A DNA stretch of 64,000 bases from Lepidurus packardi (taxonomy: Eukaryota > Arthropoda > Branchiopoda > Notostraca > Triopsidae), in NCBI GenBank assembly GCA_023053545.1, contig JAKZAN010000069.1, forward strand, positions 62,001 to 126,000, read 5' to 3'. Within the stretch, counting starts at the first letter, position 1; each line of letters starts with the position of its first letter. Below the pieces are notes generated by a model that saw only the letters and a list, made by a program, of their open reading frames with translations, did not search any database and had not been told where the DNA came from. The position numbers and the translations under genes were made by a program. Below, piece by piece: positions 1,749 to 22,840 of the stretch.

Positions 1749-4700
1749 ATGCCGAAAACCAGAAGTGGTAGTCAGAGAGCCGCAGCAGACGACGATGACA
1801 GTGACCAGGAAAACGACAACGTGGTCGACCAAGCCACAGGTCGTGGGCCAGGCATACACCGCGCTGAGCTTATGGAGCTCCTGGCTGATCAGGAAAGAAG
1901 GTTCCGTCGAGAGCAAGAAGCCATACAGGAGACACTTTTACGTGCCATTCGTGAAATGACGGCAGCTGGAATCAACGAAACCGCAGCGTCAATTCCAGAG
2001 GCATCGTCCCAGTTAACCGGACCTACCACGAGGGGCCAGACCGCGACTCGAAGCAATTGGCGTCCAGAGCCGGATCGGCACATCAACGTTGCAAATATGG
2101 ATATGTTGGACGCTGAGATTAGCCTTCGGGATTTCCAGGCGTGGAGGGAGAAATGGTCAAACTTTTCCACCCTGGAACGCATCCAGTCGTACCCCCGTGA
2201 AGTTCAGGTTTCCGCACTAAACTCCCGTTTGTCATTAGGAATGATGAGCATCGTGCGGAAGGTCCTGAAGATCGAGCCCGAAGATGCTTTGACGCCGAGT
2301 CAAATCTTGGACCGCATTGGAGAGCACATTCAAAAAAACCGAAGCGTTGCCCTCGACCGGGTGGAATTTGAGGAATGCACCCAAGGCCTATCCGAGTCCT
2401 TCGACGAGTTTTATATCCGTCTACAAGGTATTGCAGACTTTTCAGACCTGTGTGTGCATTGCCGCGACACAAGGATCACCACAAGAATTATGTCTGGCGT
2501 CAGAGACAGGCCGATGCGCAAGAAACTCATCAAGATTATCCCGTTTCCAACTCTTGAGCAAGCCGTAAACCTATGCAGATCAGAAGAGTCAGCGGAAAAG
2601 AATGAGGCCAACTTGAGCAAGTCAAGCATCAACACAATCAAAAGCGACAAGCAGCGTCGTACCAGGGGCCGGCGAAGCAGCCCTAGCACCAACAACAAGA
2701 ACTGCTCGCAGTGTAAGCGTTGCGGAGCTGCAGAGCATCAGAACGGCAAGCAATGTCCGGCCAAAGGACAAACGTGCAACAAGTGCAAGAAGCAAGGGCA
2801 TTTTGCAAAGGTTTGCAAATCGTCGGATAAATCTACGGATGGCACGTCGGATAAATGGTTGGCAGTCGGAAGTGTCCATATTGCGGAGGTTGCGCATATC
2901 CAGCGCGCACCAACCATTACCGTAGACCTGAGACACTCCGGGACGGGCCAACGAGCGAAAGTCCAAGCCCTACCGGACACGGGTGCAGACGTGACCATAG
3001 CCGGTATGGACATCATGCGCAGCATAGGCAAGCTGGAGAGTAACCTTAGAGGTCGAGTCAGCCACGACCTATACGCTGCAAACGAAACCCCGATGGAAGC
3101 CATTGGGGAGCTAAAACTCCAAATCCGGTATGGTAATCGAAGTATCGACGAGCCCATTGTGTTCTGCAAGCAAAAGAGCGGTTTGTTATTGTCTTGGATG
3201 GCATGCCAGAAGCTTGGAATCATTCACGACGATTACCCAAAACCCATTCACGTCAAGGCCGCTAAAGCAAGCGAAATCGACCGTAAGCAGGTTAAGGATG
3301 AAATTCTACGTGAATTTGCAGATGTGTTCGGTGGAGATGGCACCCTGAAGACAATGTCGGGTCCACCCATGCGAATTGAGTTGAAGGACGGTGCAATTCC
3401 GTTCGCAGTAAACGGTGCCCGCCCAATACCGTTCGCCCAAAGGACGGAAGTAAAACATATGTTGGACGAGATGGAGAAAAACGGCGTCATCAAACCCGTT
3501 TCGGAACCCACCGAGTGGATCCATCCTCTCGTTGTCGTGCAGAAGCCGAGTGGCAAGTTAAGGCTTTGCGTAGACCTTACGAAGCTCAACGCCCACGTCA
3601 AAAGGCCAATCCATCCGCTACGCTCCCCAAAGGATGCCGTAGCAGGAATATCAAGGCGCGCGAGATATTTCTCAACTTTTGACGCGACGAACGGCTACTG
3701 GCAAATACCCCTTGAAGAAGCCAGCCAGGCCTACACGACTTTTATCACTCCTTGGGGAAGGTACAAGTTCCTCCGGGCAACCATGGGACTGACGTCCGCC
3801 GGAGATGAATATTGCCGAAGGACAGACCAGGCACTGGAAGACCTGGAAAGGCTGTCGAAAGTGGTCGACGACATTTTACTATTTGATGAAGACCTGGAAG
3901 AGCACATTCAAAGAATCAAAGCCTTTCTAGTCAGGTGCAGGGAACACCACATCACCCTCAGCGCAGGAAAATTCGTCTTGGCTGAGAAAGAAGTAAAGTG
4001 GGCCGGATACATGGTTGGGCAAAACGGAATTGCCGCCGATCCCGCCAAAGTGGAAGCTATTGCGAAATTCCCTTGTCCCACAAACATCACGGGCCTAAGA
4101 TCGTTTATGGGCCTGGTGGAACAGCTTACGGATTTTTCGCAGGAAATTAGTGCGAAAGCGGCACCCTTAAGGCCACTGATGAGGACGTCAAACACGTTCC
4201 AGTGGACTACGGACCACGATGTCGCATTTCAAGCCGTAAAGCAAGCCTTAGTGGAACCCCCCGTCCTGAGCCAATTCGATCCTGTCCTGAAGACGGTTCT
4301 GCAAACAGACGCTTCGAGGAAGAATGGATTGGGATTCGCTTTGCTCCAGGAGCACAAGGAAGGATGGAAGCTGGTTCAGTGTGGCTCTCGCTTCGTCACG
4401 GGCACGGAGAGTCGTTACGCAATGGTAGAGCTGGAGCTCCGAGCGGTCGAATGGGCGATGAAGAAATGCCGCCTATATCTATTAGGTCTCCCAATTTTTA
4501 CGTTGGTGGTAGATCACCAACCGCTTGTCACCATCTTAGACAAATATACATTAGACGCTGTCGAGAACCCGAGACTCCAGCGCATGAAGGAGCGGTTAGC
4601 CCCATTCGTGTTCCGCACAGAGTGGCGGAAGGGGAAGCTCCACGCAATCCCGGATGCCTTGAGTAGAGCACCGGTCAGGGATCCGACCCCAGAGGACGAC

Positions 4701-6071
4701 GAAGAAGATGTCGCCGCAATGGAAGTGTCGAGGACATCCCTACGAGTACGAGCCATCACGCTAAGCAGTGAAGACGTCCCAGACATGACGCTGCAGAAGC
4801 TGAAGGCAATGGCCCAAGAAGACGAGGGGTATCAAGCCCTCCACACAGCAGTCGAGGACGGTTTCCCGAAGAGTGTGGACAGAGCGGACCCGGCCATACG
4901 TCCCTTTTGGAATGTAAGGGAAAACCTATCTACGGCAGATGGTTTTGTGCTGTTGGGCGCGAGAATTGTCGTTCCTAAAAACGCCAGGAAGACGGTACTC
5001 ACCAAACTCCATGCGGCGCATCAAGGAATTGAGCGCACGAAAAGGAGAGCCCGCCAAACGGTATACTGGCCAGGCTTAGGGAACGATATCGCCACAACTG
5101 TTCAGGCTTGTGAAGCATGCCAGGAATCACGGCCGAGTCAACCCCCGGAACCCATTTTGTCAGATCCGAGGCCCAAAAGAGTTTTCGAGGATGTTGCTGT
5201 CGACCTGTTTCAAATAGGAAACAACACCTACCTTGTTTACACCGATCGACTTTCCGGATGGCCGGCAGTTGATGCTTGGTATGGCAAACACCCTACAAGC
5301 CGCGACGTCATCAGCGCAGTCGTCGAGAAGTTTACGGACCTTGGCGTGCCATGCCGACTACGTTCGGATGGCGGTCCACAATTTAAATCACAAGAATTCG
5401 CAGAATTTTTGTTGAAGTGGGGAGTAGCCCACTCCATGTCCTCACCTCATTACCCGCAGAGTAATGGGTTGGCGGAGGCAGCGGTGAAGGCCATGAAGGC
5501 ACTTGTAATCAAGACGTCTCCGTCTGGAAGATTAAGCATCGACGCCTTCAGGGAGGGTCTGCTGGAATGGAGAAACACCCCCAGAGCCGGCGGGAAATCC
5601 CCAGCACAAATTGTGTTTGGGCACCCTCTAAGGTCATGCCTACCCGCACATTACACCTCGTTCGCACCTGAATGGCAGAAGCCCGATGCGGAATGGGAGG
5701 AAGCGGAGATGAAGAGGCAAAGGGATATGGTGGAACGGTACGACAAGCGTACTAAAGAGCTCCCGAAGCTATCTGTTGGTCAGAAGGTCCGCATACAAGA
5801 TAGCACTACCAAACGGTGGGACCAAACCGGAGTGGTGGCGAAGACGGAAAGCAGCCGCAGCTACAAAGTTCAATTGCCGAATGGTAAATGGATGTGGAGG
5901 AACCGAAGATACCTCCGTCCGGACCTGACCAAAGATGAACAGCCTGAAGAGCCCGATCGAGAGGAACCGTCACCACCGGTGCCTAAGCGAGCCCAGTTCG
6001 CGGGTGAAACACCAGAGCCCGTGAGGAGAGGTGCGCGTCAAAGAACGACACCTAGTCGGCTGGATTTATGA
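1749..6071 (+). CDS. gypsy-1 Gag-Pol polyprotein
   Basis: Single 1440-residue ORF starting at ATG 1749, 115 bases after the 5' LTR. In order: a Gag region; CCHC-type zinc knuckles (about residues 318-360); an aspartic protease with DTGA at about 410; reverse transcriptase with [11 protein letters not shown], a YWQIPL block and an active-site box reading VVDD at about 705 in place of the usual YVDD; RNase H with TDAS; and integrase. The integrase has an HHCC finger (from about 1088), [13 protein letters not shown] and a [10 protein letters not shown] block, then a C-terminal tail. It would package, copy and integrate the element. Gag and Pol share one frame, so no frameshift signal is needed. 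There is no envelope gene. It resembles the K02A2.6-like group of invertebrate gypsy elements, a placement from memory. Confidence 0.95.
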
Positions 6072-8699: not shown

Positions 8700-10445
8700 C
8701 TGGACGTTGCATTAGATGATAATTGAAGACTATTTTTTGGCAGTCGTTGACGGCTCCGGAGCTTCAATTTTGGTGAAGTAAGGGAGCAGAATAAGGGAAT
8801 AGAACTATTCAACTTCAATGACATCTCTTTCCATTTTCTGAAATCAAAAGCTATACGTTCTATAATCAAACCTTTGTAGGTAAACACGACAAAGTCGCAT
8901 CACTGAGTGCCAGACAAAGCCATTTGGCCCATTACTTGGAAATAATATCCATGAGAGGGATCTAAGCAAGGAGACCCGTTAACTAATTTCATGTAGAAAT
9001 TGGGAGATGACAAACACATTTTGGCAGTTTGGTTCCGTAGCGAGTAAGGGCACTTAAACTCAGCCAAGCCATGAGGAGGATTCTCCAAAGGATCAAATAC
9101 TCTTCTATCGGGACTTGCAGCTAGCCAAAAACACTTCGGATTTATCACAAGGCCGCAGAAGTCCACGGTGACACGATGACCAAGGCGATACATAGTACCC
9201 TGATAACGGGCCTGCTGCTATTACTTCAAACTTCTGACCAAACCTGACCTGCCTTATTCCACTCAAGTCATTGTCCTCTAGGATATTCAACAATCCTGCC
9301 GATGTCCACACTGTGCACCGTTTCACTACCTGTCCAAAGGTAGTCGCCGTTAGTCTGCAGAATCGAGTAAATTCATCAGTGTATGTAAATGTCTGGGTAC
9401 TGCACCTTTGTTTCTTTACCTTAATAAACGTTCTTGTTCCCATAAATCGCTGGATGACTGTGAGCGGCTGTATTTCTCTACGTGTCTTGCCTTGGTAATG
9501 TCCAGTTTAATTTCTTTAGCAAAGCACATTCGGACGGATTTTTTGGTGAGTATCCAGATTCTTGTTACGTGTGCTGAAAACCCGTTCCAAGCGTTTTGGG
9601 GTAAAGAAGGAATTGCCACGGACAGTGTTTGGCGGATGTTTGTTTGGATCTACGAAGATAATGACTTCAGTCATTGCATACTCATAATGGATTAAAACGG
9701 ATAGTTACTTACGTCGTATTCAGACTCGTTAGTATTTAGTTGGTACGTAAATGTAGACGACCTTGGTACCTCCCCGAGACAGGTTAGCTCTCCCGAAGTG
9801 GAGGCCAGTGTTGCTGCGGTCTTAAGCATTTTTTGCAAAATCGCTGTTCTCTGATTTAATAACCTCATTTAGCCCGATCATAGCATCCTTGTGTTCCAAA
9901 CCAAACCGAGGCTTCTTGCATGGCTGGTACGAGGAGCAACCGGTATGGCTTCCGTCAGTAATATGGAACGTAAAATCATTCCGATTTCGGTAGCGGCCCC
10001 ATTGCTGTGGTTTGCTTGTACAAGAAAGCTCTGGGGGTACTTCATTGAATCCCTCTTTCTGACAATTATGCAGCAGTTTTAAGACAGCAATTACATGGTT
10101 GCAGTATCCGAGCTGTCCCACAGTGCATAAACAAGTGGCTGATTCAATTGCATCTCGCCACGAGTTGCAGACTAATGATGGTTTAAACGCAAGCTCTACT
10201 TGATGTGGTGCATCGTTTTTTCTGAAACTTCTAAAGCATTTTGCCCGAGCGCATAGTGTTTTTCCACAAGGAAGAAGTAGGGTCTCAACTTCCGTAACAT
10301 AGTGGTCTTTTAAGAAAAGCTCGCTACGGTTAAAATACCTATCCGATGTAGTTTGTGACTGGAAATACTCTTTGATCAACTGCTCTGAGATCCCTGGAAG
10401 CTTTTCTATAAATTTAGACCACACTTGACTATTCACATGACTCAT
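8700..10445 (-). pseudogene. SWIM-finger/YqaJ-exonuclease accessory protein of ISL2EU-1, broken
   Basis: Exon one (10445-9822, 207 residues) carries a SWIM-type zinc finger seen as CTVGQLGYCNHV. Separate downstream pieces (about 9443-8700) carry the YqaJ lambda-exonuclease-like fold with WLAASPD and AEFKCPYS motifs. An in-frame TGA near 8907 replaces the Trp of the sister copy (ALSGADW at 41130-41150), so this copy is broken. It is transcribed towards the transposase gene. YqaJ proteins degrade DNA ends in phage recombination; their role in these transposons is unknown. The gene order and orientation are the same as in ISL2EU-2. Confidence 0.75.
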
Positions 10446-10589
10446 AGTTGTGCTAAAAGTAAAAAGAAGAAAAAATAGGAATTACTACACTGAACCTTAA
10501 AGGACTAGGGAGTGCTATTGCGCAAGATGGCGGATCCATAGTTTACATGCGCTTCACTAGATGCCACTGGTGAATTTGGCAAACGCTCT

Positions 10590-10881
10590 CAACACATTAT
10601 CAGATAGAAATCCTGTGCGAAGCCACAGGATCGCCTTGCATTCATCCTGTTCGTACGCACAGGATTATATGCCCACGGCTTTCGCTTCAGCGCGGGATCA
10701 CGTGACTTTGTTTTGTTTACATTTCACGTGACGTTGTTTTGTTTAGTAGTTAAATTTTTTGTCATGGGTAAAACAAAGAAAAACGAAGCAGCGGTAAAGG
10801 CAGTTCTTTTAAAAGCAAAGGAGCGACAAGAAGAGTTCGAAAGACGAAAAAAAGAGGCCAGGAGGATTAAAGAACGCGAAC
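10590..10881 (+). repeat. Left long terminal inverted repeat of the KDZ element
   Basis: Matches the reverse complement of 21584-21848 with scattered substitutions and about 27 extra bases around 10715-10755. It includes an internal hairpin-like pair of ACAGGAT/ATCCTGT motifs. It runs into coding sequence: the first roughly 39 codons of the transposase gene (start 10763) lie inside it. Confidence 0.9.
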
Positions 10882-12860
10882 CTTCCTTTATAATTTTTAA
10901 ATAAGACGGTTGACAGCGAAATATTTATGTACTTTTGTTTTTCAGTTATACCTCATGGGTTTCTTGTTTCTCAAGCACTTTCAGTGGGTGAAAACTGCTT
11001 TTAAGTTTAACAACAGACGTTCCTGACAGTGATCATAAACTGAGCCGAGGAACCTAACCTAACCCTCTCACTTGGCGGTCGTGTAGCAGATTTTTTTTTC
11101 ACATCCGTACGAGAGATGAACAGACCCGCGTAGCGAAGGTAGTATTTGTTTCAGTATTTTAATCAAAATCTTACAAATGTTCACTTTGCTAGTAATAGGT
11201 CTGTCTGACCAGCAGCTGCAAGGTGTCTCGTTGGTAAGCGGCATGAGCCGAACGGCAATCGCTTGCAAAAAATTGGTACGAGTCGAAAGAGGCCTAACCT
11301 AAACGAGCCCACGCGGTACTTTTTGATAATATACCTGTCTGGTCACCTTTTGCCCATTATAACCCAACGAAAACTAACTTATAACTAGTTCCAGCATAAA
11401 TTATAACTAGACCTAAAGAAACCAAACCTAATAAAAAAAATCTTAACCTATTTTAATGCACTAAACCCAGGCGCGTTAAAACCACACGGGCAAGTTAATG
11501 GACTAGTGATTTAGCGTAGATTAGGTTAGGTTATTAAGTAAAGGCAAGTTATGACCAGGTTAAAATCATGAATGTTTGTAATGAACTTAGTGCAGATTTT
11601 TTCAAACTGATAGTGATTATGAGAGAAGAAACTTGAAGGAGGAGTACAACACCAAACGTACTGCGCACGCCGTAGAACAAATAAGCAGCCCGATGACCTT
11701 CATTAATTACAATAAACATATTCTTATCTGATCTCTGTGGGACGACCTAAGGATATTTAAAGGATAAATTTTTCTTTTCAATTTTTCTTTTCGTCGTCCT
11801 TTTTTCTGGCTTTAAAGAGTTTTTTTATCAGAAAGGTTTAATTTTAAAGATATTCGGTTAATTAGCTCTTTCTTGGGCAGAATGCTATACTGGTCACTCT
11901 GCTTCCTCTGTGTTTTTTTCGTTTCCATAGTTTCTATTTTATATTTTATTTATCGTGAAGCTGCTGGTGAGAAGTGTCCTAGCATAGGGTATAGGTCATC
12001 GGCCACTACAACGGGGTAGGTTAAACCTCTTTTTAGCTGCATTTTTTTAAGTTATTGAACCTTAAATTTAAAAACGCTAATGAAATAAACAAAAAGGTCA
12101 CTTTCAATCCTTCTATGGTACTATGTGAAAGAATTTTTACACTGTGTTGGGGCAATTTTTTTTTTTTTTTTTAAACTCGCCTTACTTGTTGACTTGGGTT
12201 GTTTACTTGTAAGATTCTGGTTGGTAGGGATACTATATAAATGTGGTGCCCATTAACGTGTCAGAATTAATTTTGCCAGTTGCCCCGCTGTTGCCTGTGT
12301 CAGAACAGAAAGCGAGAAATTTAAAGGAAAGTAAACGTAATAATGAGCAGTTTGTGGCTTATTTTATTCCATAGTGGTGTAACTTTTCTCACAAATGTCA
12401 CAGATTAGTAACTTAATTATTGTTCGGTAAAGATGTCCTTTTCTACGCAGCAATTCAATTTGTATTTTGTAAATATACAGCATTGTTCCAATCGCTAAAA
12501 AATGTTGTGGTTATTTTTGTGCATGGCTTAAAGAATATTTAAAGATCATTCCTAACTCTCTTTATGGACGTAATTATGAAATCGCACTAATTTTGGTAGA
12601 AAAGTTAAATAATTCACTTCGGGGTGTTTACTTAAAATTATGACAATCCTAAGACCTTCCTGAAGTTTAAGACAATGCGTTTGATCATTTCGAGTTTTCT
12701 AAATTGGAATATGACGTTGTGAAGGAAATGACCTTTACAAAAATCGAGAGGATTCGCGAAGAGCCAGCAATCGTTGAAAGAGCACGAAGACGACGAACCT
12801 ACAGATGACAGCGGATGGAACGATGTGGGAATATTCCTGGAAGCAAACCCCAGCGTGTAG
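10763..12860 (+). pseudogene. Degenerate, internally deleted, inverted copy of the KDZ transposase gene
   Basis: The plus strand from 10763 encodes the same N-terminus as the real gene (MGKTKKNEAAVKAVLL...) until about 10881, where similarity stops. Near 12690-12860 coding scraps resemble the real gene's C-terminus: FTKIERIREEP against FTKVERIREEP in the minus-strand gene, then DDSGWNDV against EDSDWDDV before a stop. Between the two there is no recognisable homology, only AT-rich DNA. I infer that the left arm was once a second copy of the gene facing the opposite way, now deleted and frameshifted. An alternative is a gene-converted terminal repeat plus chance resemblance at the acidic tail, which I consider less likely. 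Confidence 0.65.
10905..12680. other. KDZ left arm: no recognisable gene
   Basis: AT-rich sequence with several short CCTAACCTAA/TTAGGTTAGG runs (about 11046, 11293, 11521) and a T-run at 12162. One possible exon-like stretch ends in GGGGTAGGT near 12015. No frame matches the transposase exons of the right arm. Probably eroded remains of the inverted gene copy. Confidence 0.4.
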
Positions 12861-13321
12861 AAAATGAAGTTCTATTATTTTTGGCAGTTTTGCACATTAT
12901 GATGGCAGTACAGAAATCAGGTAACTGGCAGAAACACAGATCTTGATTAGATTGTTTGATTTGGCATACTGATTGGCTGGGTGTTCACGCGGCCTCCAGT
13001 ATTACGTGAACATCCTCCCCTTCATCGTCTTCCACTTCTTAATGCTACACCACCTATTAATCAAGAAATCTGTCAACTGAATCGCTAAAATCTGTTCCGT
13101 TGCTACATAAATCATAACGATAATTTTGTCGTTACCTCTGGACAAAATATGTTGTCTTCTGGAATTTCCATATGTAGAGTAAACACGTGCTCCACTTCCT
13201 GTTCAACAGTTCCCTGAAATGAATAAAGCGCTAAGTGAATCGGAAAAAAGTCGCAAATTAACGTTTACTCTTGTACCTCGTCTTCTAACGTGATCTGTGC
13301 CAAAGTGGAATGACCAATCAC

Positions 13322-14837
13322 CTAAAGAAAAAATTTATTCTTGCAACCTGTATGTTTGTAATTGGATATACTTACAGTGGCATTTGAGTTTCCTTCTTGG
13401 TAAACTGGAGGTGGATCTACTTTAGTTCTCTTCCCTGTAATAAAGTGTATAAATAGGAATTCAGAATACACATACACACAAAAAGCAGTTATACTGGAGT
13501 AAGTTTTTCCCTGATATCCAACAATAGCTTCCTCTGGCTTTTTCTCTGCCATCTTTGAGGGTCCACGGGGAAGTTCCACATGTTTTTTCTACAATCAAGC
13601 AATACATTTATACGGTAAGGGCTACGAAATATCATCCCAGGATATGAAACCTAATAAACGTATCTACATACTTGACGGTCCAAAGCGATAAAACCACTTT
13701 CCTTTTTGTTGCCATCGTCGCATTTTTTCTTCAGGTTTCCTATAAAAAGAACCAATCAACAATACAATATACGATAAGAACGCAGTCACCTGTTCCGCTT
13801 CTTTTCGGTGCTCCGCGAGCAGCGACATTTCTAGGTTTAAAAGAGACAGCAGGAATATTCTTCCCTAATGAATTGGCTTGTAACAGCCCAGAGGTTACCT
13901 AAGTATACAATCACACGACTGGATGTAACGGTACGTTTACTTTTCTCGAATTACTTCAGTGGTCTCCGAACGTGTGCTTATTGCCCGGTCCAAAGTAGCA
14001 CACCATACATCCTGTAAAATCGGGTCCTTTAATGCAGCGTTTTTTGGTGTGACCATAACAGCTGCAGGGTTTTCTTGAGTTATCATAACAGCAGCAGATG
14101 CAGCAGCCTCTTTGTCCTCTGGTTCCCTTATCGATTCCACAAGGCTCTCCTGGGGTAAACTGTAAACAATCGCTTCTAAAAATTACTTAACTTTGGTCGA
14201 CTCACTTGGGTTGTTGGAACGGAGTTGTGGAAGCCATCGATCTCTTCCAGATTCATTGTATTTTCACATTCCACCCATTTATTGGGAAGTTCACCTCTAT
14301 AATTACAGGCTGAATTATTATTGTGAAGATCGATATTTTAAGACAAAAACATTACTTCTTTATTCTTGAGACGTACTCATCCCTCAAGTTATTACACATT
14401 GTGCTTATCTCTGCAGCGAAGTTACTATTTCCCGAATCTTGTTTTTCTTTAAATAAGCTGTGCATTATGTCATTACATGTGAGGTACGTGAACCGGTAGC
14501 TTGGTTCTTTCCCTATCACAAGAAGGACACAAGCGTTGCCTGAACCTTCCAACTCTGCCAACTATATACAGAAGTGTTGAGCAACTAAAATTTGTTGTGC
14601 TAATTATATTTTGCTTACCATTCTCTGAACTATCTTCTTTTTGGCATAAGCATCGTCCCACTTCTGAGATTGCAACTTCGCTTTTAGGTAATGTTGTCGC
14701 ATGTTGTCGGATCTTTTTTGGTCCATTTGGTCCCTAAAACGTGTTTGCTCTCCACACGCGCTGCACTGTTTACGCATGTAATTCTGTTCCACATTGCAAT
14801 GAGGACAGCGTCGATTCTGCCTCCACTTCGTCTCCAT
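13322..14837 (-). CDS. Second (passenger) gene of the KDZ element: spliced zinc-ribbon protein of unknown function
   Basis: Starts at ATG 14837 with METKWRQNRR and a zinc ribbon (CPHC...CSAC within about 35 residues), then a basic helix-rich stretch to about 14620. Exons then follow with consistent GT-AG borders: about 14567-14357 (SGNACVLLVIGKEPSYRFTY), about 14296-14207 (GELPNKWVECEN), about 14153-13940 (rich in Ala, Glu and Thr), and probably a basic exon around 13579-13500. Exact 3' exons are uncertain. The pattern LVIG...YRFTYLT after a basic region faintly recalls the strand part of MADS/SRF-type DNA-binding domains; this is only a suggestion. It lies in the same direction as the transposase and has its own TATA-like motif upstream. 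It may be a transposition helper, a regulator or a captured host gene. Confidence 0.55.
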
Positions 14838-15005
14838 TTTCGTTTCTATGAAATAGCTCGTAAAATCATAAATCGTTTACGAATTCGATACTTGTTTATT
14901 ACACAAGACAAACGGTAGGGAGTAGGCTAATAAGAGAAACCAAAACGACACTGTTTTTCTTATGGAATGAAGAATCACTCCGTTACTATAGCAACATGCT
15001 ACCTT

Positions 15006-15016
15006 GCATATATAGT
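15006..15016 (-). promoter_or_regulatory. TATA-like motif upstream of the KDZ passenger gene
   Basis: On the minus strand CACTATATATGCAAGG lies about 170 bases before ATG 14837. About 15-20 bases after it comes GTTGCTATAGTAACGGAGTGA, which is very similar to the block after the TATAAA at 16801 on the plus strand. The shared TATA-plus-block arrangement suggests two related core promoters. Confidence 0.35.
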
Positions 15017-15379
15017 GACGTATATGAGTGGCGTCGAGGGGCAACATCGTGACGTCTAAGGGGCGTCATAGCCATACAGATTGGATACCCGACTCGGACA
15101 TAGTGTGACGTCAGAGTTGCAGCACTGAGAAGCCGTAGAATACACTCAAGATTCTACAAACTGCTCCCTCCGGAAATTCAGATTCAAAATGCGAGTAACT
15201 GAAAAAGCCCAGAAGTCACCAAAAGTGAAACCGGGGGTGAGGGTAGAGGCGAAATGAAATTTGATATGGGAACCTGCAAGAGCTGCGTCACGGATCACAA
15301 TGGCCACTTTATGAAAACATAATATTGAAACGATTACGCTTATAATCACGGGAGTATCCACGGAGGTTAGGCGATCCCC

Positions 15380-15514
15380 TAACCCCCCACCCCCATGCAC
15401 CCCCTGAAATGATTTTTGTATATTGGTGAACAAAGGGAAACCCAAGTGTAAAAAATTGCACATGGCACCCTCCCCCCCCCCCTCCCACGAACCAAAGTCC
15501 TGTATACGCCACTG
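15380..15514 (-). repeat. G-rich hAT/MITE-like terminus inside the KDZ element
   Basis: On the minus strand the sequence starts CAGTGGCGTATACAGGACTT (from 15514), followed by a long G run and GGTGCATGGGGGTGGGGGG. The CAG-start plus G-run design is like the terminus at 35442. I did not find the opposite end, so this is either one end of a small hAT-like element or a truncated copy. Confidence 0.4.
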
Positions 15515-16780
15515 TTTATGTTGCATCCTACCAACAATAACCAACTTAATCGCTATGGATGATATGATGAAGGTTTGACTTACAGGCCTACTGATAAAAA
15601 GGGCATTGATCGCCTAGTAATCTACGTCACCAGAAAAGGATAACAAAACGTTAGGTTTCGCTCATCTATGTAACGCCCCGTCACAATCTGAAATAATCAC
15701 CAAACACTGTACGATGATTGCGAAAAATAGCAAAAATAAAATAGCGATTAGCCTGGTGATTCCGTGCAATTTTATCTAACTGTTAAAATAAAATTCAGTA
15801 ATTAACTGATTCGGGTCTTGGTATCTGCAGATTCAAAAATCGAAGTATTTTTTATGTAATTTTATTAAGGCATGCGTAACAGGGGTAGCGTAGTAGATAG
15901 ATGTCATACATAATTTATCTTAATGCCTCATGCGTGTACGTCTTTTTGCAAACTTGTGCGTCTTGAGGTATCTCGGTTTATGCTGGAGAGATTGTCCCAA
16001 TATATGAATTATATATTTGCGGGAAAAAAGGTTCGATATAAAATTTCAGAAACAGGAAACACTAAGCCTATTCCTTCCCTTTTATCCTTTCGTTCGTTCA
16101 GCCCTTGGATGTCCATACGTTTAAGCGCGAATTTGGTGTATGCTTCACACGTATTTTCTGTGCCCACCCCCATACCGCGAAGTTCTCATGAAGACAATTC
16201 ACTAATATTATAATGTATAACTCCTTTATGATGTCATCTGACTTGAATATTGCCTTTTTGCCTTCTGAAAAGTCATCATAGCCTCACGATGGAAGGCATC
16301 TATTACGTATCAGATTTCTTTAGATTTAATGGCTGTTCCGCTAGCTAAATGCGAATCTTCAGGCATCGACTAATACGATAGACTGACTAAACCAAAAAAT
16401 CTGGAAGCTTTTTATGTGCTAAAAGACAGCAGTGTACGGAGCTGCAAACCGTAATACCTAGGCTAGACGGGACAAGTTAATGATAATCAACACCGACTAC
16501 CTGAGTTAAATATGTTTAAGTGAGTCGTCTAGAGACAAGAACATTAACGCTAATGAAAATCAACTGTTAACGAAGTTTCCGAATTGAAGAAGTTGTTACA
16601 AGTTCATTAACTATGACTAACATTAGCTAATGCCTAATTAAAGTCCCGTCTAGACAACTTATAAGACTGCTTTTACCATACAAAAGAACATGCAACCATC
16701 ACGTGCTTATAGCGTGCAGCATCCGGATTCTCACGTGTATAGCACGTACACACCACGTGAACATCCATTATGTTATGACG
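15515..16780. other. KDZ central spacer with no recognisable gene
   Basis: About 1.2 kb of AT-rich DNA between the passenger gene and the transposase gene. The longest open frame (15923-16213) has no motif I recognise, and no introns or repeats stand out. Confidence 0.4.
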
Positions 16781-16800
16781 TCACTGAATACGTCAGTCTG

Positions 16801-16806
16801 TATAAA
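16801..16806 (+). promoter_or_regulatory. Candidate TATA box pointing to the plus strand
   Basis: TATAAA within GTCTGTATAAACCGG, followed by GTTGCTACGGTAACTGAGTGA. This block is almost the same as the one after the minus-strand TATA at 15006-15016. No convincing ORF follows on the plus strand; the nearest ATG (about 16870) closes quickly. Confidence 0.3.
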
Positions 16807-17268
16807 CCGGATACCTTGTTGCTACGGTAACTGAGTGACATCTGTACGAATTGTTTCATTGAATTGAATATGACGAGCTGAAAACTATGATGATGAGCAA
16901 GCTGATCAAAACGATGATGAGTAAACAATGTTTACTCACTTGAGGGACGAGTATATCGTAAAAATAAAGAACAGTATGTATTTTTGCATACATCATTTGG
17001 AACACAGGAGCACATTTATGTTTGTTTCCCATTCATTTTCGCTTTAGTTGTTTCAGAAAAATGTTGTATAGGAAAGGAACCACGCATTTTTTGTCGTTAT
17101 CAAAATCATAGAAAAAAACTTGAATTATTCAGTTACAGAACTACTGTCATTATTGAGTTACCATCTTCATTGAGTTATGTAGTAACCGAACGTAATTTTG
17201 TAATTCAGATGAAAATCCTTTGATTTCTAGATTAACAGGTTATGCTTGAAATAAAATAGTTTCGTATT

Positions 17269-20200
17269 CTACAGGACGAAACTTTCTTCCAGGAATAAGT
17301 CTTCCACGTCATCCCAATCGCTGTCCTCTATCGGTTCGGCTTCATCGTCCTCTTCACGTACCAGTACGTTGGTCTCAGTACTAACAGATGGGCAATCTTT
17401 GACGGCTTGAAATTGCCGTATGGCGTCTTCTCTGAATAAAGAAATATGACGTTGTCTCTTAATAACCAACGCCTTCAGGCCGTCCAGAGTAACTTCGTCA
17501 CTGGTTTCTGGTAAACAGTATTTTTTAAGTCCGTAAGCGGGCCAAAGCATGCTAGGATGAAAATTTGCGAGCGCCTTCTCTTTTTCTTCGTAGTATCGGC
17601 TCAAATCGGGCATTTCCTTATCAAGTATTTCCGGCTCTTCCCGGATTCTCTCTACTTTAGTGAAGAGATCGATGGCTTTGGTCAGTCGGTCGCGGTCGCC
17701 TAGACACATCAGCACACATCAGTATATGTATACGTGCTATCGAATTATTCGTATTACTGTGCACATCAGTCACGTCAGCTTCTGCCAACTTGGGGAATTC
17801 CGAAGCGTCGGGGACGTAATTCCTCAGTTTATTGTACCACTCCACGTGTTGCATCCATTTTTGTTTCTCGCTTGCGGCTTGCAGGCATTTTTGTCGCCTC
17901 AATTTGCTCGTGTCTTCAAAAGTAGAAAAGATGCTTGAATATTAGCTGCGGTTCCCGTAGTTCTTTTCAAAATAACGGTCTGTTGCAGAAGGGATACTTC
18001 AATCCCAAGAAGCTACTTATTTACAGCGATTCACGGGCGTCAGCAAGTGACTGTCTGAATATACCCCACCCTTGTAAGCCATGCATTCAACTACTATACT
18101 ACCGATTTTTTTAACGAAGAAGGATTTGTATTGACATTATTATACAACACCCATAATTGCGCAGAAGCTGTCACTTTCATTTAAGAAGTGAGATCCTTAA
18201 ATTAATTTATTTTCACCCCAAGTAAGCCGTGAATTAACAAATTCACAATACTTTTAGCAATAAGATAGATTCTGTATAACTATAAAAATACAACTTGTAT
18301 TGTTGCCAAAAATGGACAACTTTACCGGGAAACAGTTGACATATCCTCTAATCGTTTCGCCTTTGGAGCACGGCACACTTACATAAAGCGGTTACATAAA
18401 GCAGAAGACGAGGAACACGAATGAACGAAGCATTTTTAATTCCTAAAAGCTCATGCACACCTGAAAAGCTACATACGTGCTCTGACTACGTTGCTACGAC
18501 AAAATGCTTCTCCTTAGGCAAAGCGGACAATCACATATTACAGATAAAGATATCAATTCATTCAGATAGACATTAAAAAAGCAAAAAAATACATCAGGGT
18601 CAGCATGACTTACCTTTTCTATGAGTGGACGGAAGATATGTTCCGATTAAACCGAATGAAAAACTTACCAGCTGCAGCTGACGCTTCAATTTTCAAACTC
18701 TTGATACGAGCCGCTGCAACACCATCCGTGATGGATCGATGGACGTACCGCAGGAATTTCCGGACAGGACAAACGCGCCTCGATTCGCTGCTTAACAGGT
18801 CAAACACTTCAGTAGGCTCGACTGACAAACTAATAAGATTCAGATGTTACGTTTTTAATGCATAACACAATAAAAAAAAAAACAGAAAAAAGGGAACTAC
18901 TTGTCTAGAAATTCCTGAACGGCTTCCATGTCCTTCTTTGTAGGCGCGGGAGCAGGATCAGCCAAGTTAGCTGCAAAATATGATTAATTAGTTTTGCACT
19001 TAAAAATGTTTTCAGGCAATCACCGCCGCTCTGTCTTTCATGCTCGTACGCTCCTCCCGCAACTGCTCTTCCGAATAGCCAAACTTGTCGAGTTCTTTTT
19101 GATGGTACGCCAATAAGCGAGGAACCTGTCGCGCAAACAGATAAAAAGTTACCCCACTCAAGCCAGGAAGCCAAAATAAAATAGCAATGCATGAACACCT
19201 ACCATTGGATACTTCTCTGTCAGAGCTTTCACCAACGCTTCTATTTTTTTGGTGTTCCAATAGATAACGTGATCGGTTAACATCTCATTTCGACCCGAGA
19301 TTCATAAATATTAATTCAAGAAAGTAAATCCATCACCCCAAAATACTCACCTGCTTTGTCCATTCTTTTCGTAGTTTGCGCAGTCTTTGAAATGTAGGCG
19401 AAGCATAACTCGCAATGTTCCCCTGTCAACATGCCCAGCCCAAGCACATGACGAGCGCTCCAGCAAAGCTAGGCATGAAATATTTACAAAACTTGCTACA
19501 TTATTTTGGAGTTTTACCTGGCAATTGAGGCAGTGTCCATGCGCATGCCAGACGGGAACAAAGTGCTTTGAGTTCTCCAGAATTTGCGGAAGGTCGTTTA
19601 GGGGATGGTCTTCACGTTCAGCTGTGTCCCTCATGAACGGGTAGAGCTGGCACATAACATCACTGGATACAAAGCATATTCGTCTTTGCTTTCCAAGCTC
19701 GTACTGGAGCAGCAGGGGGTACGAATAAATTTCCCCTCGGAACATGTTCAATCCTCCCAGTATGATTTCGTGCCGACACGCCACAATGCAGATGCCGTTT
19801 CGTCCAATTTTGCAAACGACTGACATTCTGCACGCGCTGCTTTCCAGTCCGATGCTTTGCAGGTACTGGTCTGAGAGCCCTATAATCGGAAGAGAAGACC
19901 ACTCGTAAGGTTTCGTTTGTGAATACTGAAATAATTACTACCTTTGCTACACGCGTTTGTTTGAGCTGTCGTATGCTTGTATCAAAATCCGCTACGTGAG
20001 CGTCCGGTAAAAGGAATGCACTTTTCATATAAGATTCTCGAATAGAGCTGACAGTCTGATTCAGAAAATTTGTTTGAGAAATATAGAAAACTTACTCGGA
20101 ATTGTGCTTCCATCTAAATACTTTCTTATTTCCATCAACGTGGACTACATGGCACGTCTCCCAGCATGAAGGGCACTGGAGTAAAGTCCAAGGAGCTTCA

Positions 20201-21700
20201 CAGTCTTCATCAGTTGTCGGAGACGTTTCCATTTTTGCAATAAGGCTTAACAATCCGAACTTACAACGCCTCCACTCCTGATAGGCATCTCTAAACAATG
20301 TCGGGCAAATCTGCGTGACCTATGGTGTATTTGAATGAGCTTGTGACAAGCACAATCCTTTTAGAGCACAATAAAGGATACTTACATATGCATTCAAGTC
20401 TTTCGACTTGCGTTCCAGAGTGGACAGAAGGGCTTTCGCTGAAAATCCCGGATTTTCCATTTTTGAATAGTGGAAGTCACGGAGCAATTCCACGCTGTAA
20501 ACGGTGCACCCTAAGGAAAGCCCCACAATTAGGTTTCACTAATGGGTAGAGTCGTAGGATACCTTTGTAAAAATACGACGACGCTAAAAAATAATCTGAA
20601 AATATCAGACTGTCCCATTCCACTTTGGACATCGAACTGCAGCTCTTACATTTCAGTCCAGGAAGGAAGGTATCATGCCGACCTAAAAATAAACGGTTAG
20701 CGAAATAAAAGAGAAGCAGTACTAGTAGATACCTCGATTACACACGTATACACAAGGGAGATCGAATACATCTTCGACTTCCTCAGAGCCACAATGTTTA
20801 CAAACTCGAGCCATGTCGATTGGAATTGCTCGACCTGGAAAAAGACAAGAAATGCAACAAATGTAAACGACTGAAATAATATCGTAAGTTACAACATACT
20901 TTCAGTGGAAATGCTATAAGAACCATCGCTTTCTGCTTTAAGCACTTGACAGGGCTGGAGGGGCATTAGATAGCCACACACCCAAGTATGGCGCAAATGT
21001 GTCGCCAAGAAAGTATGTTTCAGGGCGTCACATTCGATACATAAAGCGCCGCATCCGTCACTGCATCTAAAGTCAGAGTTTATTAAGTGATTTAGGGAGA
21101 AAGACATTACTTACCGGAGGACACTTGAAGACTTTTTACAGTTGAAGCAAATTTGCTTCGAGCGCAGGGCGGGCGACTCTTTTTTTATGATGCCGGTAAA
21201 AATTGTGGGTCGGACGGTTTTCCAACCAGCTGCTAGTCTATCGCGCCTTTCACGCCAACTTTCGGCTGGGCGAGTTGACGTACGGTTCACATTGCTAGTA
21301 AATGTTTGCCTTGTGCTCCTGTTGTCTCCGGAATCGTTCTTCGGGTCTAAATTACAGAAAGAATTATAATTTTGATCAGTTTGCGTTACACAGTTCCAAG
21401 CTGAAATTACGTCTTACTTTCTTGAGAATCGATGAGCGTTTCCTGTACATCCGGAGCATGGCCATTCGTTCGCTTCGCACGAGAATGATTACCCACCTTT
21501 TGACGAGGTTTGGTGCGCGAATGTAACATTCCCGTAGTGGTAGTAAGGGACGCATGAAGAAACACTTGCTTTTTTCTATAGCGTTCGCGTTCTTTAATCC
21601 TCCTGGCCTCTTTTTTTTGTCTTTCGAACTCTTCTTGCCGCTCCTTTGCTCTTAAAAGGACTGCCTTTACCGCTGCTTCGTTTTTCTTTGTTTTACCCAT
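17269..21700 (-). CDS. KDZ-family DDE transposase, multi-exon
   Basis: Start ATG at 21700 (MGKTKKNEAAV). Exons read on the minus strand with GT-AG borders: 21700-21418, 21346-21115, 21066-20900, 20834-20733, 20682-20563, 20510-20386, 20319-20096, about 20036-19942, 19879-19518, 19468-19351, then about 19283-19203, 19125-19024, one near 18970, one near 18830-18669, about 17920-17750 and 17699-17269. Introns are mostly 48-71 bp. Domains in order: basic N-terminus; Cys/His finger CFNC...CSDGCGALCIEC...H...H; a second Cys pair CKHC...CKSC; CPSCWE followed by HVDGNKK (first Asp); CRHE and FRGEIYSY; SDVMCQ (second Asp); HGHCLNC; GMLTGEHCE (Glu); and an acidic tail ending EESFVL. This order fits KDZ transposases. 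The 20.0-19.9 kb and 19.3-18.7 kb junctions do not resolve cleanly in frame, so a lesion there is possible. Confidence 0.85.
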
Positions 21701-21848
21701 GACAAAAATTTTACGTACGTAAACAAAACAAAGTCGCGTGATCCCGCGCTGAAGCGAAACTTGTGGGTATATAATCCTGTACGTATGAACAGGATGAGTG
21801 CAAGGCGATCCTGTGGTTTCGCACAGGATCCCGTCTGATAATGTGTTG
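21584..21848 (-). repeat. Right long terminal inverted repeat of the KDZ element
   Basis: Reverse-complement partner of 10590-10881, about 265 bp. It contains the promoter-proximal region and the first 39 codons of the working transposase gene. It is directly followed by the target duplication AACGCTCT. Confidence 0.9.
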
Positions 21849-22137
21849 AACGCTCTATAGGCACATGTACTATTCAATCGGGTTATGGTTGGAATCGATA
21901 TTACTTGTAATCAGAGACAATGAATCGCTGTATTGCACTCAAATGATAAATACTACTTCACTCAAAATTGTAAACAAAAACAAAGTGTTTGGAATATTGC
22001 AACGTGCGTTTTCTTATAATAAATAAATTGAATGATGGACGAAACATCTATATTTCTTTTTCTTCAAAAAATGGTTATGGACTTTTCAGCAAAGTAATAA
22101 ATTTAAATTAGGAATGAAATATGGACTACTACACTGA

Positions 22138-22347
22138 ATAGGAACTACTACACTGAACCTTAAAGGACTAGGGAGTGCTATTGCGCAAGATGGCGGATCC
22201 ATAGTTTACATGCGCTTCACTAGATGCCACTGGTGAATTTCGCAAACGCTCTATAGGCACATGTACTATTCAATCGGGTTATGGTTGGAATCTATATTAC
22301 TTGTAATCAGAGACAATGAATCGCTGTATTGCACTCAAATGATAAAT
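22138..22347 (+). repeat. Second copy of the ISL2EU-1 right end plus Harbinger-A flank (empty KDZ target)
   Basis: This stretch repeats 10476-10589 joined to 21857-21951 with only a few substitutions (for example TTTCGC for TTTGGC). The KDZ element and one copy of AACGCTCT are absent; the single AACGCTCT is at 22245-22252. The two copies are separated by about 190 bp of unshared sequence (21952-22137). It shows a local duplication that includes the transposon junction. Confidence 0.9.
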
Positions 22348-22840
22348 GGTATTCACCCTGGCTTTAGAAATCTTGACAATAAAAGCTGCTCGTCGATCAC
22401 TTCGTAAAATTCACAGGACGGAAACTTTCTGGACGGAGATCATGAACAAGACCTGGACTGACAAAGAATGGAAAACCAACATCCGTGTAACGCGACGCAC
22501 TTTCCAGTACATTTGTGATCTCCTGCGAGAAAACCTAACCAAAAAGAAAACCAATTTCTGTGTACCCATCTCTGGTGAAAAACAAGTTGCCCTCACGCTA
22601 CGGCGCCTAGGAACAAATATCGAATTTCGGTCTCTGGCTACCATTTTTGGTGCAAGAAAAAACAACAGCATCCATGAAACTTGCGACGCCCTGGTTGTTC
22701 TCCTAGGGTACTCTATAATAACAATGCCTAAAGGTGACCGGTTGCAAGAAATTATATCGAGCTTTCAGAGGAGAAACTTGCCCCAGTGTGTTGGAGCCAT
22801 TGATGGTACACATATCCCTATTTTGGTACCGAAATAACAC
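22346..22840 (+). pseudogene. PIF/Harbinger transposase N-terminal fragment (element A)
   Basis: A 163-codon frame with the Harbinger layout: WTDKEWKTNIRVTRRTFQYI near the start, FRSLATIFGARKNNSIHETC (the helix region before catalysis) and VGAIDGTHIPI, which holds the first catalytic Asp. It stops at 22838 immediately after this motif. The second Asp and the Glu are missing, and nothing homologous follows. It should not be functional. It directly follows the terminal repeat of element A. Confidence 0.8.

Follow-up and report, generated by a model that had tools for sequence, protein, structure and literature searches.

A probable composite, double-ended KDZ transposon with a zinc-ribbon accessory gene in the genome of Lepidurus packardi

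What kind of mobile element carries the start of the same gene at both of its ends? The question is raised by an 11,259-bp sequence with exact ends (positions 10590-21848) in a 64,000-nucleotide stretch of Lepidurus packardi DNA (contig JAKZAN010000069.1), here called the window, whose coordinates are used throughout. An initial annotation, made from the sequence alone, had described it as a large KDZ transposon with a second gene and a palindromic architecture. We find that this animal DNA is very probably a composite, double-ended transposon of the KDZ (Zisupton) type, moving by cut and paste. The class of element is known; the new parts are the mobile double-ended form and a conserved accessory gene. 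KDZ elements are among the less studied animal DNA transposons. In this genome the borders are complete and four sites are independently marked; there are also deletion derivatives, two sister families and a candidate for an accessory protein, and together these suggest the make-up of a functional animal KDZ element. Below, family A is the family of the window element, and B and C are its sister families.

A KDZ transposon with exact borders

The Pfam KDZ profile finds 16 places in the host genome (G000, 108.56 Mb), 15 of them above the cut-off, which is 26.6 bits both for PF18758 (KDZ) and for PF18804 (CxC3). Both domains are recognized on the minus strand of the window element (Table 1). The window exons alone match KDZ with an E value of 2.8e-12 (47.2 bits), and the spliced protein of a sister copy matches it with an E value of 3.7e-34 (118.7 bits) over profile positions 4-217 of 217, as well as CxC3 with an E value of 3.4e-10 (40.1 bits). 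These searches bear out the KDZ identity that the initial annotation had proposed from the motifs. Paired Cys/His motifs and HVDGN, SDVMCQ, HGHCLNC and GEHCE are all present in order in the minus-strand gene, and HVDGN, SDVMCQ and GEHCE, which keep this order, may supply the D, D and E of the catalytic triad. The element is thus a KDZ transposon, Zisupton-like in its borders, with 8-bp target-site duplications and terminal inverted repeats (TIRs). Calling it an undescribed system, as had been done at first, is too strong for the element as such: PMC9297572 already describes the KDZ superfamily, invertebrates included.

The borders, the duplication and the length of the inverted repeats had all been correctly placed. 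The two TIRs are identical in 247 of 266 aligned columns (92.9%), with about 26 gap columns in addition, and the same 8-mer lies directly outside each. By itself this 8-mer is not rare, with five occurrences in the window compared to 2.1 expected and 3 of 100 shuffles reaching five, and therefore the weight of the duplication lies in its exact position and in the empty copy of the target nearby. That copy, also pointed out in the initial annotation, is 97.3% identical to the joined flanks over 221 columns with one gap. Each TIR further contains two palindromes of the form ATCCTGT-N8-ACAGGAT, at distances from the tip that are equal to within one base between the TIRs. With up to two mismatches allowed, the motif occurs four times in the 64 kb, always perfect and always within a TIR, compared to 0.15 expected in the window, and none of 100 shuffles reaches four. 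These palindromes are likely transposase-binding sites, and the best candidates for that role.

Two transposase-side ends

Read along the transposase strand, the left half of the element is the transposase side and the right half is the remnant side, with right-half numbering starting at 10590. Alignment of the transposase half with the reverse complement of the right half recovers the TIRs plus four collinear blocks, all of them inverted (Table 1). Without the TIR, the four best scores are 103, 62.5, 61.1 and 35.4 bits, compared to a maximum of 34.0 bits in 200 dinucleotide-preserving shuffles. At the DNA level the four blocks match the family A transposase only, and not that of family B or C. 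The transposase start region within the TIR was matched at the protein level in family B, and the TIR query also gave one 29-base match to a locus on contig C16 (C16y).

On this comparison, the right half is read as an inverted, decayed and internally deleted second element of the same lineage, and both TIRs as the transposase-side ends of the ancestral element. An inverted second element explains the start codon at both ends and the TIRs that run into coding sequence, the presence of the zinc-ribbon gene on the transposase strand, and the length of the element. The palindromic architecture reported earlier is real, and is explained by the inverted second transposase gene. The TIRs are 92.9% alike, whereas the internal remnants are about 70% alike, a contrast that would be expected if the ends had been kept for mobility.

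Mobility of family A

A genome search with the terminal repeat gave 22 matches, 12 of which form six end pairs. Five of the six pairs have identical 8-bp flanks, at four independent sites: AACGCTCT in the window and, in reverse on another contig, at the same site in C100; ATCTCCCT on C6 (4,181 bp); and CAAGATTT (9,193 bp) and TTACCATC (1,289 bp), both on C4. The copy at the CAAGATTT site has the same composite structure and aligns in a single 8.3-kb alignment at 98.4%. The unlike flanks of the four sites show that the family moved as a unit bounded by these two ends. Further copies had been named in the initial annotation as a check on its reading, and those found do end at the same positions. 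The 10 unpaired matches include a C16 copy with one complete and one broken end, two broken matches on C1, and an end on C2 at the target of the window element.

In the mechanism that we propose, the KDZ transposase, encoded by many exons and probably assisted by the zinc-ribbon protein, would bind the paired ATCCTGT-N8-ACAGGAT palindromes in each end, its DDE core would cut both ends, and insertion would follow with a stagger of 8 bp. Two elements of the same family, lying in opposite orientation, would at some point have fused, with loss of the accessory-gene end of the original, leaving transposase-gene ends on both sides. The fused unit may then have gone on transposing, presumably in trans, while shedding internally deleted derivatives, down to 1.3 kb.

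One insertion is seen with identical flanks on three contigs, C58 (the window), C100 (55527-77041) and C2 (63379), which may represent uncollapsed haplotypes or a segmental duplication; the copy on C100 is about 10 kb longer, the extra sequence lying in two places. Separately, the family A C-terminal region is broken at the same place by a family C end in C4:1201939 and C1:4240868, and probably likewise in C38:222821, which is nearly identical to the C4 copy. This shared interruption is probably one event copied to several places. The ancestral 3' end was sought in two copies and not recovered: in copy C4c the family C end interrupts the gene at window gene position 4085, and the match of copy C1b to the window element stops at gene position 4842.

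The transposase gene

The transposase exons were outlined by comparison with relatives about 43% identical from the same genome. The model comprises the 12 exons listed in Table 1, with the first exon or exons and the C-terminal exons (within 17272-17941) lying outside it, and there is a possible extra small exon between 18821 and 19024. Compared with the sister copy C4c, the window copy has a frame shift and a 15-base in-frame loss, both in the core exon, and one of its modelled acceptors is not AG. The window copy is inactivated: it has lost the ability to encode an intact transposase. The initial annotation's "readable many-exon transposase" thus holds exon by exon, but not for the gene as a whole.

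The frame shift is common to the window and C100 copies, at the same site. Nine other copies were aligned; five cover the place and all five are open (C4c, C38a, C38b, C1a and C4d), and four are without it. Two of the five, C4c and C1a, are broken by a family C end; C38b extends beyond the end of its contig; C38a and C4d were seen over part of their length only; and none of the five is established as intact throughout. In the C4c splice model there are 15 introns, of which 13 measure 48-96 bases; all are GT..AG, as the model requires, and the first two and last two exons are weak.

A conserved zinc-ribbon gene

The second gene reported in the initial annotation is real, and it has counterparts in families B and C. 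Its zinc ribbon is carried by an open reading frame (ORF) at 14607-14876, and the gene is known from exons 1 and 2, with exon 3 outside the model. Exon 1 has 24 matches in the host genome, 10 of them in family A elements. By placement, 20 lie in KDZ elements or their derivatives and two lie beside a KDZ gene, with the other two outside this tally. Nine of the 16 KDZ places are outside family A, and at six of these nine an accessory match lies 5.6-6.3 kb away, pointing towards the transposase; C4:1205264, C3:352999 and C1:10725918 have no accessory gene nearby among the matches listed. At four of the six loci (C5, C16 twice, and C1), the gene starts about 180-245 bases from the far end, and at one of these four, C16y, the transposase-side end was not found.

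Intron 1, as read from the sequence, is in phase 0 and occupies the same place in families A, B and C, which may also have a second donor in common. Exon 2 is conserved in families B and C as well, and the window exons are 24-38% identical to their family B and C counterparts. These alignments indicate that the zinc-ribbon gene is conserved in three KDZ families, its intron positions included. In both B and C it is convergent with the transposase gene, a layout like that of MuDR in maize, an element whose target duplications are 9 bp.

The accessory proteins of families A, B and C match no Pfam family above the cut-off and give weak matches only, and a comparison with the PDB gave just two matches (E 0.1 and 0.15), which were not used. 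In family B exon 2, three pairs show 5-6 synonymous and 10-12 non-synonymous differences, a ratio of non-synonymous to synonymous rates (dN/dS) of about 0.4-0.6. Family C pairs gave 0.8 over 88 codons and 0.2 over just 20 codons, a further C pair gave no value, and one B pair and four A pairs were uninformative; with so few changes, selection cannot be proved. From the analogy of other DNA transposons with two genes, we infer that the zinc-ribbon protein may be a transposition cofactor. A TET/JBP protein was also considered as the second gene, and was rejected, as a scan of seven of the right-half ORFs gave no match.

Alternative explanations

Several observations weigh against a mobile, double-ended composite. 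The fourth block passes the shuffle maximum by a small margin (35.4 compared to 34.0 bits), the greater part of the right half is without a match to the transposase half, and some remnants match families B and C at the protein level. No buried accessory-side end was found inside the element with two terminal motifs and up to four mismatches. The sixth end pair (C1:4536593 / 4568376, 31.8 kb apart) has unlike flanks (GGACGAAT / AATGGGCT), and for five transposase-side ends (two on C1, one on C4 and two on C38) the search found no partner. Finally, no family A copy that is both complete and intact was seen, and thus the active form was not observed.

It is tempting to ask whether this is simply an ordinary KDZ element with long inverted repeats, its right half being unrelated filler and no second inverted element being involved. 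The similarity outside the TIRs is certainly patchy, with four blocks of 45-221 columns at 69-76% amid long unmatched stretches. However, the blocks are collinear and all inverted, reach the C-terminal end of the transposase, and beat all 200 shuffles; the TIRs include transposase coding sequence; and the zinc-ribbon gene lies at the place expected from a second inverted element. We consider unrelated filler improbable. We see very little chance that two separate KDZ insertions came to lie tail to tail at one locus without forming a mobile unit. Nested KDZ insertions do occur here, such as the family C element in the family A transposase, but the same end pair, with the same structure or its deletion derivatives, stands within four different matching 8-bp duplications. 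Membership of another superfamily is next to negligible. Duplications of 8 bp do occur in hAT elements (PMC12730594), and long TIRs with convergent genes occur in the Mutator-like MuDR (PMC3440606), but KDZ and CxC3 were the only families that the spliced protein matched in a Pfam scan at E values up to 0.05, and no MULE transposase appeared.

The remaining alternative concerns the zinc-ribbon gene, which might have been captured from the host or be a passenger that plays no part in transposition. It has no known experimental role, its three proteins fall in no Pfam family above the cut-off, the within-family changes cannot prove selection, and three of the nine transposase loci outside family A are without it among the matches listed. 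Nevertheless, its exons are related across families with common intron positions, it faces the transposase at a similar distance at the other six loci, and 20 of its 24 genomic matches are placed in KDZ elements or derivatives. On balance we regard a captured or passenger gene as somewhat unlikely.

Sister families and a second palindrome

Family B has 8-bp duplications, AATTTCTT and GGTCTATC, read by eye. In family C, no 8-bp duplication was found at C1x, where the flanks are unlike, or at L079, where 7 bp (CAACCGG) are common. Two inverted copies of the accessory-gene end make up L079 (C1:8354078-8359048), a unit with family C ends on both sides; its arms are alike over 698 bp (99.86%) and 970 bp (99.90%), with 1.29 kb inserted in one arm. 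It is a recent palindrome built from the opposite, accessory-gene end, in a second KDZ family. Given the family A composite and L079, end duplication has occurred at least twice, in different families and with opposite ends. Three further loci on C2 (L080, L081 and L082, at 6.62, 7.28 and 7.53 Mb) each have inverted family B transposase sequence next to accessory-gene ends that come from a family B relative; they may represent a third type of KDZ rearrangement.

Features of the locus and its surroundings

The coordinates are collected in Table 1. Two ORFs lie beside the target, 9822-10481 (219 amino acids) and 22346-22837 (163 amino acids); neither has a Pfam match at E 0.01, and the first shows a SWIM-like Cys/His pattern by eye. 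In the wider assembly, C52, C214 and C43 carry uninterrupted COX1 matches that are probably bacterial. Many COX1 pieces on C6, C4, C2, C1, C5, C38 and C21 contain TGA and fit an animal mitochondrion. The assembly looks like an animal genome with bacterial contigs and many mitochondrial insertions, and Wnt matches in the host genome support its animal origin.

Table 1. Features of the window element and its target (dot, no strand)
Feature	Position	Strand	Remarks
Left target-site duplication AACGCTCT	10582-10589	.	directly outside left end
Left TIR, 292 bp	10590-10881	+	carries copy of transposase coding start (MGKTKKNEAAVK...)
Two palindromes, left TIR	10610-10631, 10644-10665 (10610-10665)	+	motif search
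Block 1 remnant	11064-11281	+	gene 1835-2049 vs 475-692, 68.8%
Block 2 remnant	12425-12530	+	gene 3522-3626 vs 1836-1941, 72%
Block 3 remnant	within C-terminal-end remnant 12733-12880	+	gene 4184-4228 vs 2144-2188, 75.6%
Block 4 remnant	within C-terminal-end remnant 12733-12880	+	gene 4495-4600 vs 2189-2291, 70.8%
Accessory exon 2 (LAELEGSG...DEYVSRIK)	14358-14561	-	open
Accessory exon 1, zinc ribbon (CPHC...CSAC)	14619-14837	-	open frame
Nested short dispersed repeat, about 210 bp	16446-16661	.	at least 26 other genomic places, 88-91% identity
KDZ transposase gene, broken	17272-21700	-	exon outline from relatives and Pfam matches
Modelled exons 1-6 of list	21115-21400, 20900-21066, 20733-20834, 20563-20682, 20386-20510, 20096-20319	-	
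Modelled exons 7-12 of list	19942-20047, 19518-19879, 19351-19468, 19203-19294, 19024-19125, 18669-18821	-	
KDZ catalytic domain PF18758	19455-19802	-	E 1.5e-11, 50 bits, above cut-off
CxC3-type cysteine cluster	20096-20834	-	PF18804, E 1.4e-9, 38.2 bits, four window exons joined with X
Right TIR, 266 bp	21583-21848	-	transposase start codon inside, at about 21700
Same two palindromes, right TIR	21774-21795, 21808-21829 (21774-21829)	-	motif search
Right target-site duplication AACGCTCT	21849-21856	.	directly outside right end
Empty (uninterrupted) paralogous target copy	22137-22356	.	partial tandem repeat of target, without element

Comparison with known systems

How does this element compare with those already described? 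Our literature search found no zinc-ribbon gene in a KDZ element and no double-ended KDZ element, a weak negative, as the founding papers (Iyer 2014, Bohne 2012) were outside its coverage. According to PMC12730594, Zisupton has TIRs and 8-bp duplications, and Zisupton-1_PGr of the Dileera lineage also has 8-bp duplications. The Pristionchus Zisupton genes have 18 and 31 exons and evidence for TIRs, with target duplications not detected, as stated in PMC9297572. Our element shares with this group the KDZ transposase, the TIRs, the 8-bp duplications and, with Pristionchus, the many exons. It differs in that both of its ends are transposase-side, in its zinc-ribbon second gene, in showing no TET/JBP match in the seven ORFs scanned, and, from Pristionchus, in its exact target duplications. 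Kyakuja elements likewise share a KDZ transposase and CA..TG termini, but the families in Laccaria (Kyakuja-1_LB and -2_LB) have 7-bp duplications and no TIRs according to PMC12730594, unlike the 8 bp and 266-292-bp TIRs found here.

Beyond the superfamily, MuDR of maize has two convergently transcribed genes and TIRs of about 215 bp, as given in PMC3440606. The likeness is one of layout only: families B and C also have two converging genes, each starting beside a TIR, whereas the transposase family and the second protein are different. Kolobok lineages are animal DDE transposons with an extra protein (KolX, nucleases), and the KolX fold holds two zinc ions (PMC9587614). These too combine an animal DDE transposon with an accessory protein, but belong to another superfamily.

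In architecture alone, the closest case that we found is Mu killer of maize, described in PMC3440606 as one locus silencing MuDR, with both TIRs from the transposase-gene end and an inverted partial transposase duplication. Here, too, both ends come from the transposase side and there is an inverted transposase duplication, but the unit is mobile, multi-copy and old, with internal arms about 70% alike. As a speculation that we consider unlikely, KDZ elements might repeatedly form mobile palindromes by duplicating their own ends (transposase ends in family A, accessory ends in family C) and transpose in trans, young palindromes might make hairpin RNA that silences the parent family, and active two-gene, MuDR-like elements might need the zinc-ribbon partner. 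If this were true, an animal would have its own self-spreading counterpart of Mu killer, with an origin independent of that in maize. Apart from this speculation, the double-ended units show how a transposon can give rise to mobile, potentially self-silencing palindromes.

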